Shown here: positions 6,283 through 55,795 of the stretch, piece by piece
Numbering within the stretch: position 1 is the first letter of the stretch
Layout: each line of letters begins with the position of its first letter
Assembly: GCA_951813545.1 (NCBI GenBank)
Contig: OX638352.1
Span: 5,551,966 to 5,615,965 of the forward strand
Source: an uncultured Poribacteria bacterium
GTDB lineage: Bacteria; Poribacteria; WGA-4E; WGA-3G
DNA length: 64,000 nucleotides
Direction of reading: 5' to 3'
Made by a program: the position numbers and the translations under genes
The notes under the pieces: generated by a model
Databases searched by the model: none
What the model was told of the DNA's origin: nothing
What the model saw: only the letters and a program-made list of their open reading frames with translations

Positions 6283-7761
6283 TTACGGAAGCACGTCGTC
6301 AAGGAACGCATCCAAATCGTCTTTCATCTTGCGCAATTCCGCTTGGTCGATGTACATCATGTGTCCAGCCTGATAGTAAGCCATCGTCATGTTACCCTGT
6401 AAGGATTCATCAAGCCCCAAATGGCTGAAGGTATACTCCGATGCGAGAAAAGGTGTTGCCAAGTCGTAATAGCCGTTCGCCACAAAGACCTTCAAAGCAG
6501 GATTGATCGTCATCGCCTTGCGAAGCGTATCGGCGACGTTGACGTATTCGTTCTGATGGTCGCTATAGTCCCATGGATGAACACGGCGACTCAATATCTC
6601 ATAAGGCAAGTCAGACTCAAATTCAAGTTCGCCGCGGACGTAATTGTTGAGAGCGGCAGTATATGCCCCTTGGACGACTGCCGAGCTTGGGTCGTATTCA
6701 TAAGTTTCGCCCGCTGAATCCCGGTCAATCCCCTTGTATCGGCTATCAAAGCGTCCAACTGTGCATCCTTCATCTCGGAGCAGCTCCTTACAGAATCGCG
6801 CAATATTAATCCGTAAGTCTGTCCGTTCAAGGTATTCCGGTGTAAGTCCGGTATACTTTGCGAGTTGTTGAACGATGTCTGCACGTTGATCGGCGGTTAT
6901 AGCACTCCCCTGCATTAAGGCGAGGGTGTAATCGCCCATAGCGAAGGCTCTTACCTCGTCCATGAACGCTTCAAATTCGGTGTCAATTCCGTCTAACCTG
7001 TCGTGATAACGTGCAGTCGCTGCGTAGGTCGGTAGATAGAGGATATAGGGGAGATCATTGCCCGGCGCGAACCGAATCGTCTGAAAGTTAAGCACGACCG
7101 AAACCAGCATGATGGCGTTGAGGTAGGTCCCGTGCCGTTCCTGAAGATACCCGGCGAGTCCGCTCGCCCGCGTCGTTCCATAACTTTCACCGATGAGGAG
7201 TTTGGGCGACCCCCAACGTTTATAGCGTCCCAAATAGAGCAGGATAAAATCACCAACCGATTCAATATCCCTTTTGAACCCGTGGAATTGCTTCGCCTCT
7301 TCACCGGGGACCGCTCTGCTGAACCCAGTACTGACAGGATCAATGAAAACGAGATCGGTTTTGTCCAAAATAGAACATTCGTTATCGGTTAGCTCATAAG
7401 GGGGTTGGGGCAATTCGCCATCTTCATCGGATTTGACACACCGCGGTCCGAGGACTCCGAGATGCAACCACACGGATGAAGAACCGGGACCTCCGTTAAA
7501 GGAAAAAGTTATCGGACGCTTGGAAACATCCTCTACATCGTCTCGCGTATAGGCAACAAAGAAAACGGAGGCTTTTGGCTTTTCTCCCTCCTTGTCAACT
7601 TCCTCTTTCAGCACAAGCGTCCCTGTTGTCGCGGTGTAGCGAATCTCTTCGCCATCAATTGTGACGCTGTGATGTGTAACCGAGAGTTTATCTTCAGGCG
7701 TATCCGAATTTTTCTCTTCATCTTTCGTCTCTTCAGACTCTTTTTTTTCTTCTTGACTCAT
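6283..7761 (-). CDS. Serine carboxypeptidase-like protein (peptidase family S10)
   Basis: 492-residue alpha/beta-hydrolase of family S10, which removes C-terminal residues at acid pH in characterised members. FSFNGGPGSSSVWLHLG (87-103) is the oxyanion/substrate motif. LLIGESYGTTRA (188-199) holds nucleophile Ser193. VANGYYDLATPF carries the catalytic Asp and YYQAGHMMYID the catalytic His. The first 30 residues are highly charged (MSQEEKKESEETKDEEK) and there is no signal peptide, unlike most S10 enzymes, so it may be cytoplasmic. ATG at 7761 directly abuts the left end of the isrB element (7765-9022), and the nearest upstream bases contain no RBS. Expression may therefore be altered by the insertion. 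Confidence 0.9.
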   Translation of the reverse strand: MSQEEKKESEETKDEEKNSDTPEDKLSVTHHSVTIDGEEIRYTATTGTLVLKEEVDKEGEKPKASVFFVAYTRDDVEDVSKRPITFSFNGGPGSSSVWLHLGVLGPRCVKSDEDGELPQPPYELTDNECSILDKTDLVFIDPVSTGFSRAVPGEEAKQFHGFKRDIESVGDFILLYLGRYKRWGSPKLLIGESYGTTRASGLAGYLQERHGTYLNAIMLVSVVLNFQTIRFAPGNDLPYILYLPTYAATARYHDRLDGIDTEFEAFMDEVRAFAMGDYTLALMQGSAITADQRADIVQQLAKYTGLTPEYLERTDLRINIARFCKELLRDEGCTVGRFDSRYKGIDRDSAGETYEYDPSSAVVQGAYTAALNNYVRGELEFESDLPYEILSRRVHPWDYSDHQNEYVNVADTLRKAMTINPALKVFVANGYYDLATPFLASEYTFSHLGLDESLQGNMTMAYYQAGHMMYIDQAELRKMKDDLDAFLDDVLP

Positions 7762-7789
7762 CTAATCTTCGGGCAGGAAACCCAATCCT

Positions 7790-8914
7790 TTAGGTTTGGG
7801 AGGAATGCCCGCTCCTATAATCGAAATTAAGGCGTGTCAGCACCCTAAAATCACACGCCTTCGCGTTTTGGCACAAGCGTTTACCTCCCAGAGAATATAA
7901 CGCTATGCCGCGTTTACTAAACCCACTGATACGCGTTAGACCATACTTGAGGTGTCTCACCAAAGTGTTCTTGACCCATCCATCGCAAGTCGTGCCACCA
8001 TATCGGGGTCTCTTACCACCGTGCTGCGGATTCTGTCTGTGAAGCTCTCTTCTACGGATAGATATAGGGGAGATACAGAAAATAACCGTGTTATCTACAA
8101 TACCAGCACTCCCTATCGTCCGATATGCCAAGCACCAACTGTCTACACAATGCGCCTCAAAAGTATCCGATAGTTTCTTTGAAGACTTTTTCAGTCCTAA
8201 TCTATCGCGTGTCTCTTGAGTTTGCCAACCTTGTAAAGTCCGCAACTTCCAACGCTTTCGGATTTCAGTATAGAACCATTGCTTGCCGACTTCAAGTGGA
8301 CTGAAAGAGGTGTTCCATTTCTTGGCGCGCGCTATGGTTCGCGCCTTGATGTCCTCAACACAGATATGCGTTATCGGAAACATCTTTGAGAACCACCTCA
8401 AGACCCGAAGTTTCCAGTCCCATCTCGCACGCGTGCCAGCAGGAATACGCACTTTGTTCGCAAGACGATTCGCCCGGTGCTTGCGATTCGGACATTTCCG
8501 TGAACGTCTGCTCCTACGCAACTCACGACGCTTTGCAACTTTCTTGCTGACTTTGTTGTGAGCATCCGCTTGCACATTCAAGTAGGTATGAGATTTACTT
8601 TTGACGGTAAAGCCTTCTTTTTTACTACCGGGGTCTACACCGACAGCAATCTCTTGTTTATAGTCACCTGAAGGGTCAATATTTAATCTCACACAAAAAA
8701 CACCATTACACCAAAACGGGGTTGCCGTGCCGGCTTTGATCCACTTCCCGGCTCTCGCGGGTGTCGTGGGCATTAAGGGGTTTTGGGCTTTATCAACAAC
8801 AGGAACAAACACGGTTTGTAAACTCCCTTTCGGGTTGTGTATTGCCCCTTCCAGATCACATATCCAAGAGGAATCAGACGAGGGGAGTATCCGATACATT
8901 GTGTTAGCTACCAT
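7790..8914 (-). CDS. isrB: IsrB: HNH-less IscB-family RNA-guided nuclease
   Basis: 374-residue OMEGA-family protein. Residues 35-78 form the PLMP domain (VFVPVVDKAQNPLMPTTPAR). RuvC-I is VGVDPGSKKEG with D94, and the Arg-rich bridge helix contains RRSRR (133-137) and RKHRANR. RuvC-II is ICVEDIKA with E187, and RuvC-III is FEAHCVDSW with H255 and D258. IscB would carry an HNH domain between RuvC-II and RuvC-III. Only about 65 residues lie there (WNTSFSPLEVGKQWFYTEIR...), with no Cys-zinc or HNH residues, so this is IsrB rather than IscB. The C-terminal RRRELHRQNPQHGG and GGKRLCQNAKA segments are typical of the family. Characterised IsrB nicks the non-target strand guided by an omega-RNA encoded upstream. 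All RuvC acidic residues are present. The stop codon lies inside the element-end hairpin. A later start at residue 6 is possible. Confidence 0.85.
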   Translation of the reverse strand: MVANTMYRILPSSDSSWICDLEGAIHNPKGSLQTVFVPVVDKAQNPLMPTTPARAGKWIKAGTATPFWCNGVFCVRLNIDPSGDYKQEIAVGVDPGSKKEGFTVKSKSHTYLNVQADAHNKVSKKVAKRRELRRSRRSRKCPNRKHRANRLANKVRIPAGTRARWDWKLRVLRWFSKMFPITHICVEDIKARTIARAKKWNTSFSPLEVGKQWFYTEIRKRWKLRTLQGWQTQETRDRLGLKKSSKKLSDTFEAHCVDSWCLAYRTIGSAGIVDNTVIFCISPISIRRRELHRQNPQHGGKRPRYGGTTCDGWVKNTLVRHLKYGLTRISGFSKRGIALYSLGGKRLCQNAKACDFRVLTRLNFDYRSGHSSQT

Positions 8915-9022
8915 GCCAAGATATGCGATAGATTACTGTAGTCAACGGTTTAACCTGTGGAGTGGACGTTTGGTATACGCTTCGCACAAGCCCAAGTCTT
9001 TACACTTGGGTAGTTGACACTA
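8915..9022 (-). ncRNA. Candidate omega-RNA region of isrB
   Basis: In IscB/IsrB elements the guide RNA is encoded upstream of the nuclease gene with the guide at its 5' end. The only upstream space inside this element is the about 108 bp between the isrB start and the inferred right end. On the minus strand it begins with the stem CCCAAG/CTTGGG (9010-8992). The region is shorter than described IsrB omega-RNAs (about 300 nt), so the RNA would have to be compact or extend into isrB. The guide would come from the minus strand just right of 9022. Presence and limits are inferred from position only. Confidence 0.35.
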
Positions 9023-53729: not shown

Positions 53730-54071
53730 AGTTTACCTCCTGCGTTACATACAAACACAAACAGGTGAATTTCGGATTCACGCCAAGTGCTTTTATTATA
53801 CCAGAATGTCCAATAAAAATCAACACAATTTTAATCTGTCACCGATATTCATTTTATTTCCAGTGAAAAACGGACGCGTTTCTCAACAGCACTTACAATA
53901 AGCGGTTGCTTCATAACCAATTTTGTGCTATACTTTATCTAATCTTCCGCTACAAACCCCACTCCTTTAGGTTTGGGATGTAGTAGCGGCGAACGGTCTG
54001 GTATATCATAAAACTAATAATTTTTACGAATTGCCTTGACAAAACCTAATCTTTGTGGTATAACTAATAGT

Positions 54072-54485
54072 ATGAAAATTGCTAACGATGACCACAAGTA
54101 TATTTCAACAGGCACGACAGTATATGCTTGTGAATACCATATCATTTGGTGTACCAAATATCGGCGTTCTGTTCTGTCTCCTGAAATCCAAGAGAGATTA
54201 AAGGCGTTAATTTTTCAACAACAAGACGCGTATCGCTACATTGTCCGTGAAGTTGAAAGTATGCCTGACCATATCCATTTGCTTGCCAGCATTCCGCCTG
54301 AAGTATCTGTTACGAGCGTGATAGGTAAAATCAAAGGCTATACGGCAAAGACACTCCGTAATGAGTTTCCAACACTGAGGCGACGCTTGCCATGTCTATG
54401 GACCCGTTCAAAGTTTGTTGCGAGTGCTGGGACAGTGACACTTGAAGTTTTGGAACAGTATATTGAGGCCCAAAAAGGTGTATAG
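54072..54485 (+). CDS. tnpA: IS200/IS605 transposase TnpA (Y1 HUH)
   Basis: 137 residues, within the 130-150 range of the family. The HUH motif is DHIHLL and the catalytic Tyr is in EVLEQYIEAQK. N-terminal YACEYHIIWCTKYRRSVL is the family signature. ATG at 54072 is preferred; the frame is open to 54036 but the extra residues do not fit the family. It excises and inserts single-stranded element circles via end hairpins. The gene looks intact. It ends with TAG directly before the tnpB ATG. Confidence 0.93.
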   Translation: MKIANDDHKYISTGTTVYACEYHIIWCTKYRRSVLSPEIQERLKALIFQQQDAYRYIVREVESMPDHIHLLASIPPEVSVTSVIGKIKGYTAKTLRNEFPTLRRRLPCLWTRSKFVASAGTVTLEVLEQYIEAQKGV

Positions 54486-55727
54486 ATGCCAAGTTTCTAC
54501 CGCACCCAAACCGTGAAAATAGAAGCACAACCGATATTCTCCGAAGCCCATGCTGCGTCTGCTGCGCTTTGGAATGCCTGTTGCTATCAAATGGATATGT
54601 ACCAGTGGCAGCGGGGGTATCCTCACGCTCACAGAGACTTCTATTTCGGTAAAGACTGCGAAGGTTGGATAGACCGGAAACTCTCTCATCCACTCTTGCA
54701 TTCCCAAAGTCGGCAAGCGGTTCGGGAGCGTTACTTCAAGTCTTGGAAATCCTACGCCGCCTTGAAAAAGAGCGGTGGTATTGAGAAACCGAAACCTCCG
54801 AACAAACCAAAGAGATATATGACGACCCGTTGGAAAAAGGCTGCTATCCGATTTGTAGATGGAAACCGTCTTTTTCCTAAACGCGTTGAACTCTCTATGG
54901 CATCAGGTCAACCGAAAATAGAGATACCTTTGCCAAGTAACTTTGATATGTCGAAAGCGGCACACATCGCAACGATTGATTTGTGCTATAACTATGGTCA
55001 ATGGACACTCCATTTCTCGTATTTGTATCACACCGAAACAACCGAAATAGGTAAAGAAGTCATAGGCGTTGATATTGGCGAAATACACCCGATTGTCTCT
55101 CACGATGGGCAAGACACACATATCTACAATGGACGGTATATCCGCTCACTATACCGCTATAGAAACAAAGTGTTTGCCGAGTTCAGTCAGGCGATAAGTC
55201 AGTGCAAACGCCATTCCAAACGCTGGTGGCGACTCACGCGCCGTAAGTGGAAGCGTATCAGAAAGATTGATAACCAAATCAAAGACGCCCTCCACAAACA
55301 GACGACAAAGTTCGTCAAATACTGCCAAGCGCAAGGTATTGGCACAATTGTGCTTGGAAACCTTACAGGTATCCGAAACCCCATAGACTACGGTAAAAAG
55401 ACGAACCAGAAACTCCACCAATGGGCTTTCGCCAAGATTGCCGAGTTGATAACCTATAAAGCCAAAGCGTTAGGTATCAAAGTCAAAGTCATTGACGAAT
55501 CCTATACCTCTCAAACTTGCCCGAAATGTGGCAACCGAAAGAAACCTAACAATCGCAACTATACCTGCAAATGTGGTTTCAAATATCACCGCGACGGTGT
55601 AGGTGCTATCAATATCAGAGAAAAGTATCTCGGCCACTTCGGTGTCCCCGTAGTGGCGGAAATGGGTCTTGCCCGCATGACACCGCCCTTGGGCTTTCGT
55701 TTGCAAGTCCCTGTTGCCTCGTCTTAA
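54486..55727 (+). CDS. tnpB: TnpB, RNA-guided nuclease of IS605 family
   Basis: 413 residues. RuvC-I is EVIGVDIGEIHPIV with D196. The RuvC-II strand is TIVLGNLTGIRN, with Gly291 where active TnpB has Glu. KVIDESYTSQTCPKCGN has E338 and starts the zinc ribbon (C345, C348, C361, C363), and RuvC-III is YHRDGVGAIN with D370. The N-terminal wedge/REC part (1-190) has Arg/Lys-rich helices. ATG immediately follows the tnpA stop. TnpB is guided by an RNA made from the 3' end of the element. Intact by length; whether catalytic depends on E338 replacing the RuvC-II Glu. Confidence 0.92.
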   Translation: MPSFYRTQTVKIEAQPIFSEAHAASAALWNACCYQMDMYQWQRGYPHAHRDFYFGKDCEGWIDRKLSHPLLHSQSRQAVRERYFKSWKSYAALKKSGGIEKPKPPNKPKRYMTTRWKKAAIRFVDGNRLFPKRVELSMASGQPKIEIPLPSNFDMSKAAHIATIDLCYNYGQWTLHFSYLYHTETTEIGKEVIGVDIGEIHPIVSHDGQDTHIYNGRYIRSLYRYRNKVFAEFSQAISQCKRHSKRWWRLTRRKWKRIRKIDNQIKDALHKQTTKFVKYCQAQGIGTIVLGNLTGIRNPIDYGKKTNQKLHQWAFAKIAELITYKAKALGIKVKVIDESYTSQTCPKCGNRKKPNNRNYTCKCGFKYHRDGVGAINIREKYLGHFGVPVVAEMGLARMTPPLGFRLQVPVASS

Positions 55728-55795
55728 ACACGAGGAATGTTCCTAAAAGGAACAAAAGAACCCCAGGTCTCCTTTAGGCTTGGGAGTATGTCAGC
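55640..55795 (+). ncRNA. Candidate reRNA/omega-RNA region of tnpB
   Basis: TnpB guide RNAs cover the end of tnpB and the right end of the element, with the guide taken from flanking DNA. Here that is the tnpB 3' part, GAATGTTCCT/AGGAACA stem (55735-55753) and the CCCCAGG...CTTGGG hairpin. The guide would begin at about 55796. Placement is by family rule only. Confidence 0.4.

Follow-up and report, generated by a model that had tools for sequence, protein, structure and literature searches.

Target guides and the IsrB residues predicted to read the same site change together in isrB elements of Poribacteria

An isrB element that carries no transposase gene raises two connected questions; namely, which transposase moves it, and whether the site at which it inserts is also the site that its own RNA-guided protein reads. 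We investigated such an element at 7.8 kb in a 64,000-nucleotide stretch of DNA (hereafter, the window) from an uncultured Poribacteria bacterium (GenBank assembly GCA_951813545.1, contig OX638352.1, positions 5,551,966 to 5,615,965 of the forward strand). The window also contains, at 54 kb, a tnpA-tnpB element, and a first-pass annotation had proposed that one TnpA serves both. The bacterium most likely lives in a sponge. The genome (6.1 Mb in three contigs) has 10 isrB, 58 TnpB and 6 Y1-transposase matches, 3 of the last being matches to the window TnpA. Across 142 isrB copies, we find that the insertion target co-varies with the residues expected to read the target-adjacent motif (TAM) of IsrB; a short DNA guide at the left end of the element varies with the target as well.

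Insertion target and TAM-reading residues co-vary

Sequence comparison identifies the window protein (374 amino acids, against about 350 as usual for IsrB; 7790..8914, minus strand) as IsrB. It matches the Pfam RRXRR family (E = 2.4 × 10−30), and its best solved relative is DtIsrB (8dmb; E = 1.8 × 10−37, or 3.4 × 10−46 in a profile search); the NCBIfam IscB model remains below its cut-off (87.6 of 175 bits). The RuvC residues D94, E187, H255 and D258 are invariant in 23 aligned proteins, 68 residues lie from E187 to H255 with no HNH domain inserted, and the N-terminal PLMP motif is present. No Rfam family reached its gathering threshold in the window, where an omega RNA of about 300 nt would be expected for IsrB; no structure search was made. 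In a scan of named genomes, relatives of the window IsrB (80 of 102 loci kept) come mostly from metagenome-assembled genomes of Candidatus Poribacteria, followed by cyanobacteria, two Chloroflexi loci and one Gracilibacteria locus.

According to PMC9581776, the TAM of DtIsrB is NTGA, with R323 reading base 3 and Q326 base 4, and a Q326R mutant accepts TTGG and ATGG. NTGA is the complement of the target TCAN. One column of the profile of 23 IsrB proteins, occupied by Arg or Gln, aligns with residue 473 of the 8dmb chain, which is R323 if Met1 is residue 151; on that numbering, Q326 corresponds to residue 476, at which a one-residue gap interrupts the profile. The corresponding residues of the window protein are Arg346 (codon 7877..7879, minus strand) and, allowing for that gap, Gln349 (7868..7870, minus strand), which stands at +3 from Arg346 as Q326 does from R323.

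To relate these positions to the target, written b1 b2 A b4, we gathered isrB copies by searching 58 genomes of the family, 39 of which contain isrB, and added a few from other searches. Among 161 distinct copies, 148 were kept by a C-terminus pattern and 142 have a YYA target, leaving six of the 148 without one. The pattern lost two copies (L215 and L226, target TTA with Gln) that fit but are uncounted; for L214 and L216, the residues were labelled manually, in agreement with the 23-protein alignment, and L227 was set to no target. Where b2 is C (124 copies), the R323 position holds Arg in 123 and is unreadable in one, with Gln or His in none; where b2 is T (18 copies), it holds Gln in 16, His in 1 and Arg in 1. 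Arg at +3 occurs in 15 of the 17 copies with b1 = C versus 1 of the 125 with b1 = T. All four combinations are present: TCA mostly with R..Q or R..T, CCA with R..R, TTA mostly with Q..L and CTA with Q..R. The behaviour of the published Q326R mutant agrees with the +3 Arg of CCA copies. The target and the residues predicted to read the TAM thus co-vary across the 142 copies. DtIsrB and the window protein share a RuvC domain without HNH, the TAM-reading positions and a TAM, NTGA (predicted for the window protein), that is the complement of TCAN; the poribacterial relatives differ in that some have Gln in place of R323 and some have Arg in place of Q326, each matched to other targets.

A DNA guide at the left end pairs with the target

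The target is linked to the element end by a simple rule: four guide bases, y z w N, directly abut the end hairpin and pair with the retained target b1 b2 A b4 through y–b2, z–b1 and N–b4. In 101 automatically called isrB left ends, the bases are complementary at b2:y in 99, at b1:z in 93 and at b4:N in 98 (81.3, 76.7 and 92.3 expected from base make-up alone), and at the control position b0:w in 34 (base make-up, 39.0). For tnpB and tnpA-tnpB elements, we used 51 left ends from a table set by hand and rechecked against the sequences, from which L053 and loci with unreadable left ends were left out. Complementarity is found there at b2:y in 50 of 51 (base make-up, 30.9) and at b4:N in 46 of 51 (16.5), with 29 of 51 at the control b0:w (25.8); b1 is invariant. 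The combined b1 and b2 rule is obeyed by 30 of 31 tnpB elements and 19 of 21 tnpA-bearing elements. Right ends show four versions of cleavage site and guide that follow the rule (TGAC/CAAG, TCAC/GAAG, TCAG/GAAC and TCAA/GAAT), picked by eye among 129 candidates from a noisy pattern list; automatic calling of right ends (115 calls) proved too noisy, with b1 and b2 no better than chance, and was set aside.

The same rule holds for published pairs. For IS608, PMC5934647 describes a target that is chosen by the left-end guide and not recognized directly by TnpA, with guides AAAG and GAAT going with sites TTAC and TCAA; both pairs fit the rule found here. As in IS608, the guide lies 5′ of the foot of the hairpin and is complementary to the cleavage site. 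The poribacterial elements differ in that several guides and targets occur among natural copies of one genome, in that the cargo may be isrB, tnpB, tnpA-tnpB or no protein gene, and in an extra outer stem that encloses guide and hairpin. In the left ends of L027 and L028 (tnpB) and of L203 (isrB), guide and spacer are absorbed into a long perfect palindrome, in which the guide has either disappeared or become base-paired.

Repeated switches and joint divergence of the 3′ end

We mapped these characters onto a tree of 143 IsrB proteins from which the C-terminal columns had been removed; branch support is mostly local (39 of 136 inner branches starred). Switches are repeated, with 8 changes of b2, 8 of the residue at the R323 position, 10 of b1, 8 of the +3 residue, 8 of guide y and 14 of guide z. 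Between b1 and the +3 residue, 5–6 of 8 independent pairs change in the same direction and none in the opposite direction (median P = 0.031). Between b2 and its residue, 4–5 of 5 independent supported pairs change in the same direction and, again, none in the opposite direction.

DNA identity, measured in 100-bp segments from the left end, locates the divergence. A TTA copy (L012) and TCA copies (L183 and L014) are 37% identical in the second segment and mostly 67–86% identical beyond the fourth, and L012 and other TTA copies are 83–92% identical in the second segment. In that segment, CTA/CCA pairs are 73–83% identical. The guide and the stretch encoding the predicted TAM-reading domain diverge from the body together in the TTA/TCA case and, less clearly, in the CTA/CCA case.

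Structure of the two window elements

The isrB element spans 7762..9018, next to a target TCAT (7758..7761, plus strand) that stays outside it. The three isrB copies of the genome that are alike from end to end (L014–L016) part right after TTGACT and the remaining copies after TTGAC; these divergence points, taken together with the pairing rule, give the limits and replace the span of 7765–9022 annotated at first. The left-end structure (7771..7810, plus strand) has an outer stem of GGGCA (7771–7775) and TGCCC (7806–7810) around an inner hairpin (7781–7800), with the guide GAAA (7777..7780, plus strand) placed to pair with TCAT at y–b2, z–b1 and N–b4. The right end (8986..9018, plus strand) comprises a guide CAAG (8987–8990), a hairpin (8991–9010) and the cleavage site TGAC (9015–9018). 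The terms left and right hold in the TnpA sense only; isrB reads against that orientation, its stop codon lying inside the left-end hairpin. The open reading frame (ORF) list for the element contains isrB and ORFs overlapping it, in line with the first-pass view that it has no transposase. The subterminal hairpins and the target retained on one side fit a non-autonomous element of IS200/IS605 type.

The tnpA-tnpB element (53939..55794, plus strand) follows a target TTAT (53935..53938, plus strand) and has a left guide AAAC (53954–53957) and a right end TCAG (55791–55794). Protein family models identify tnpA (54072..54485, plus strand), for an IS200/IS605 Y1 transposase, and tnpB (54486..55727, plus strand). 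The proposed match between the ends of the two elements is borne out on the left: TCTAATCTTC occurs at 7761–7770 and at 53938–53947, and each copy is followed by an outer stem (GGGCA/TGCCC and CCGCTAC/GTAGCGG, respectively) and a near-identical inner hairpin. The right ends are not shared, cleavage site and guide being TGAC with CAAG in one and TCAG with GAAC in the other. The reported compensation in the outer stems, which differ in sequence and still pair, is real and widespread across element classes. We rejected it as proof of one shared TnpA, the stem varying in all classes.

Ends and cargo are mixed

There are 18 exact copies of TCTAATCTTC in the genome (8 matches for the reversed control), 10 of which are true ends and 8 of which lack such an end, as judged by eye. 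The cargo of the true ends, a list that the first-pass annotation had called for, is isrB in 6, tnpA-tnpB in 2 and no protein gene in 2. At C2:70780, a TnpB-only element (L054) has a left end of isrB type, and its right end matches that of isrB copy L013 letter for letter (ACAAG, a 20-nt hairpin, TAGT and TGAC); the isrB copy at C1:5046820 (L012) combines a tnpA-type left end and the target TTA with an isrB-type right end. As far as the sequences go, the ends of isrB and TnpB elements belong to a single family, in which a given end type may go with either cargo. For Geobacillus, Meers et al. 2023 reportedly describe related elements that carry two nuclease types, TnpB and IscB, within a genome; the second type is IscB there and IsrB here.

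Some arrangements are unusual. At C1:25552 (L002), an isrB-type left end meets TTGAC after about 50 nt, forming a minimal element free of cargo at a possible start codon. At C1:1604252 (L059), an isrB-type left end lies about 430 nt from a TnpB-type right end, with no ORF of 90 codons between them. At C2:220.5–221.9 kb (L016 and L102), an isrB element stands immediately before the ATG of a tnpA, and no left end for this tnpA-tnpB element could be located beside the gene.

TCAT isrB sites often resemble start codons

Read on the isrB strand, the target TCAT at 7.8 kb becomes ATGA, at once the predicted TAM of that IsrB and the start-codon region of the adjacent gene (6283–7761). The pattern recurs. 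An ORF of at least 90 codons is opened at 56 of 87 isrB TCAT sites (a set that includes at least one wrong entry, the second for L252); at comparable sites the count is 241 of 844 for the same strand and 55 of 607 for the opposite one. When the upstream frame must also close within 40 codons, 38 of 70 TCAT isrB sites are start-codon-like versus 26 of 496 controls; the rest of the isrB sites comprise 5 that look internal and 27 with short frames. The isrB sites are related to each other, so that P values for the latter comparison are overstated. The excess may stem from a preference of TnpA for such sites or from the loss of other insertions. In other phyla (cyanobacteria, Chloroflexi and Gracilibacteria), 12 of 16 sites open a frame of at least 90 codons, scored without the upstream test on target strings picked by eye at 16 of 18 loci. 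Such a frame is opened by 0 of 6 TCAT tnpB elements of the genome and by 2 of 2 elements without a protein gene, both small numbers. One isrB element sits exactly at the ATG of the tnpA on C2.

Discussion

We consider it quite probable that the isrB element is a non-autonomous IS200/IS605-type unit with a DNA-guided target and a matched IsrB TAM code. A Y1 TnpA would move the unit in trans, and, as in IS608, its landing site (b1 b2 A b4) would be selected by DNA–DNA pairing with the left guide y z w N. The opposite strand of this site would be the TAM of IsrB, comp(b4)-T-comp(b2)-comp(b1), or NTGA for TCAN, where IsrB is expected to nick. A copy would be functional only while nickase and guide agree; a changed guide would therefore be accompanied by changed TAM-reading residues, with selection as the likely cause. 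The expected matches are b2 = C with Arg and b2 = T with Gln, and b1 = C with Arg at +3 and b1 = T with a varied set that includes Gln, Thr and Leu. Because isrB is antisense, the C terminus predicted to read the TAM is encoded right beside the guide, and a single recombination tract could swap the two together.

With some reserve, we favour the further reading that this module is a swappable specificity cassette, in which the TAM-reading domain and the TnpA guide are exchanged jointly among four matched codes (TCA, CCA, TTA and CTA). The target of the commonest code, TCAT, is a start codon reversed (ATGA), which would place the element just upstream of the ATG of a gene, in the same direction and with the frame intact. 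Guide and nickase, the two halves of the element, appear to go on recognizing one site.

Several observations weigh against this account. Both the isrB and the tnpB data lean on one bacterial family, and 45 of the 148 isrB copies were called by hand. The sign test for b2, limited to 5 supported pairs, cannot reach 0.05. Changes of guide z (14) exceed those of b1 (10), and a few of 200 pairings for guide z contain one opposite pair. With hand-called copies included, the guide agrees at both positions in 127 of 140 isrB copies. Exceptions to the code are L260 (TTA, guide GGAG, Arg), L289 (CCA, guide GAAA), L237 (guide GCGG), L013 and L318 (guide GTAA), L290 (TCC) and L304 (TCG). One tnpB element is off the code (L030 at C1:2725146, target TTGA with guide CAAG), and in the 54-kb element itself guide N fails to pair with b4. 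Rejoining of frames gave no clear offset for the presumed joint: a long frame runs across it in 37 of 96 two-ended loci, with the best offset at 0 in 14, −1 in 10 and −2 in 12 (ties counted repeatedly). Finally, among about 43 tnpA loci that we looked at, the left end is readable in 21, and all 21 of these elements target TTA and none TCA.

This last count bears directly on the proposal that the enzyme mobilizing the isrB element at 7.8 kb is the very TnpA that moves the 54-kb element, which we regard as doubtful. The proposal is compatible with the guide code, and the conflict is confined to the choice of TnpA. Its appeal lies in the left-end lead and inner hairpin common to both elements, and in the tnpA-type left end of the isrB copy at C1:5046820; the single family of ends, seen in the right end shared by L054 and L013 and in the left end of L012, partly supports the broader idea of one TnpA for IsrB and TnpB elements, although the pair first named differs in right ends and targets. 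A different target had been put forward as refuting a shared enzyme, and the targets do differ (TCAT versus TTAT). The difference is not decisive: the guide, and not TnpA, picks the target, in IS608 and by the same pairing here, so that different targets do not exclude a shared TnpA. What speaks against the 54-kb enzyme is the difference in right-end guide and cleavage site, the uniform TTA target of tnpA-bearing elements and a 5.8-Mb single-contig genome (G010) with 12 isrB matches and one weak TnpA match (E = 3 × 10−5). With no close TnpA in G010, the spread of isrB needs no present-day copy of the 54-kb type.

Two other explanations would dispense with the coupling or with the transposon. 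If the TCA and TTA lineages differ by shared descent, the match between residue and base could be coincidence; many copies are close relatives, and the b2 comparison comes down to the five independent supported pairs. We think this improbable, given that no residue pair runs in the opposite direction, that the residues in each of the four target types are those expected from the DtIsrB structure and that the protein body does not group the TTA copies. We also think it improbable that the IsrB proteins have become RNA-guided regulators that stay at the start codon of the adjoining gene and control it, with the ends as relics. Such a role would suit the start-codon-like share of TCAT sites relative to controls, the open frames at sites in other phyla and the common direction of isrB and the adjoining gene; however, the copies L014–L016 match along their full length and yet occupy separate sites of a single genome, which points to recent movement, the RuvC residues are invariant in the 23 aligned proteins, and the adjoining frames vary from copy to copy.

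Co-evolution of TnpA and TnpB to read one sequence has already been proposed (PMC11043419). The likeness to a TnpB whose TAM is the TnpA target is that transposase and nuclease read one sequence; the difference is that the protein here is IsrB and that the co-changing bases and residues are identified. Neither a residue-level code nor start-codon placement was found in the accessible parts of PMC9581776, PMC5934647, PMC11043419 and PMC10711439 or in literature listings, subscription literature being mostly outside the search. The coupling described here makes the proposed co-evolution of transposase and RNA-guided nuclease a testable code, base by base and residue by residue. For a very small nickase, it makes available naturally varying TAMs, predicted to be NTGA, NTGG, NTAA and NTAG, along with the candidate residues behind them. 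It also suggests a route by which two recognition systems may switch jointly, and points to a gene-sparing placement of these elements at start codons.
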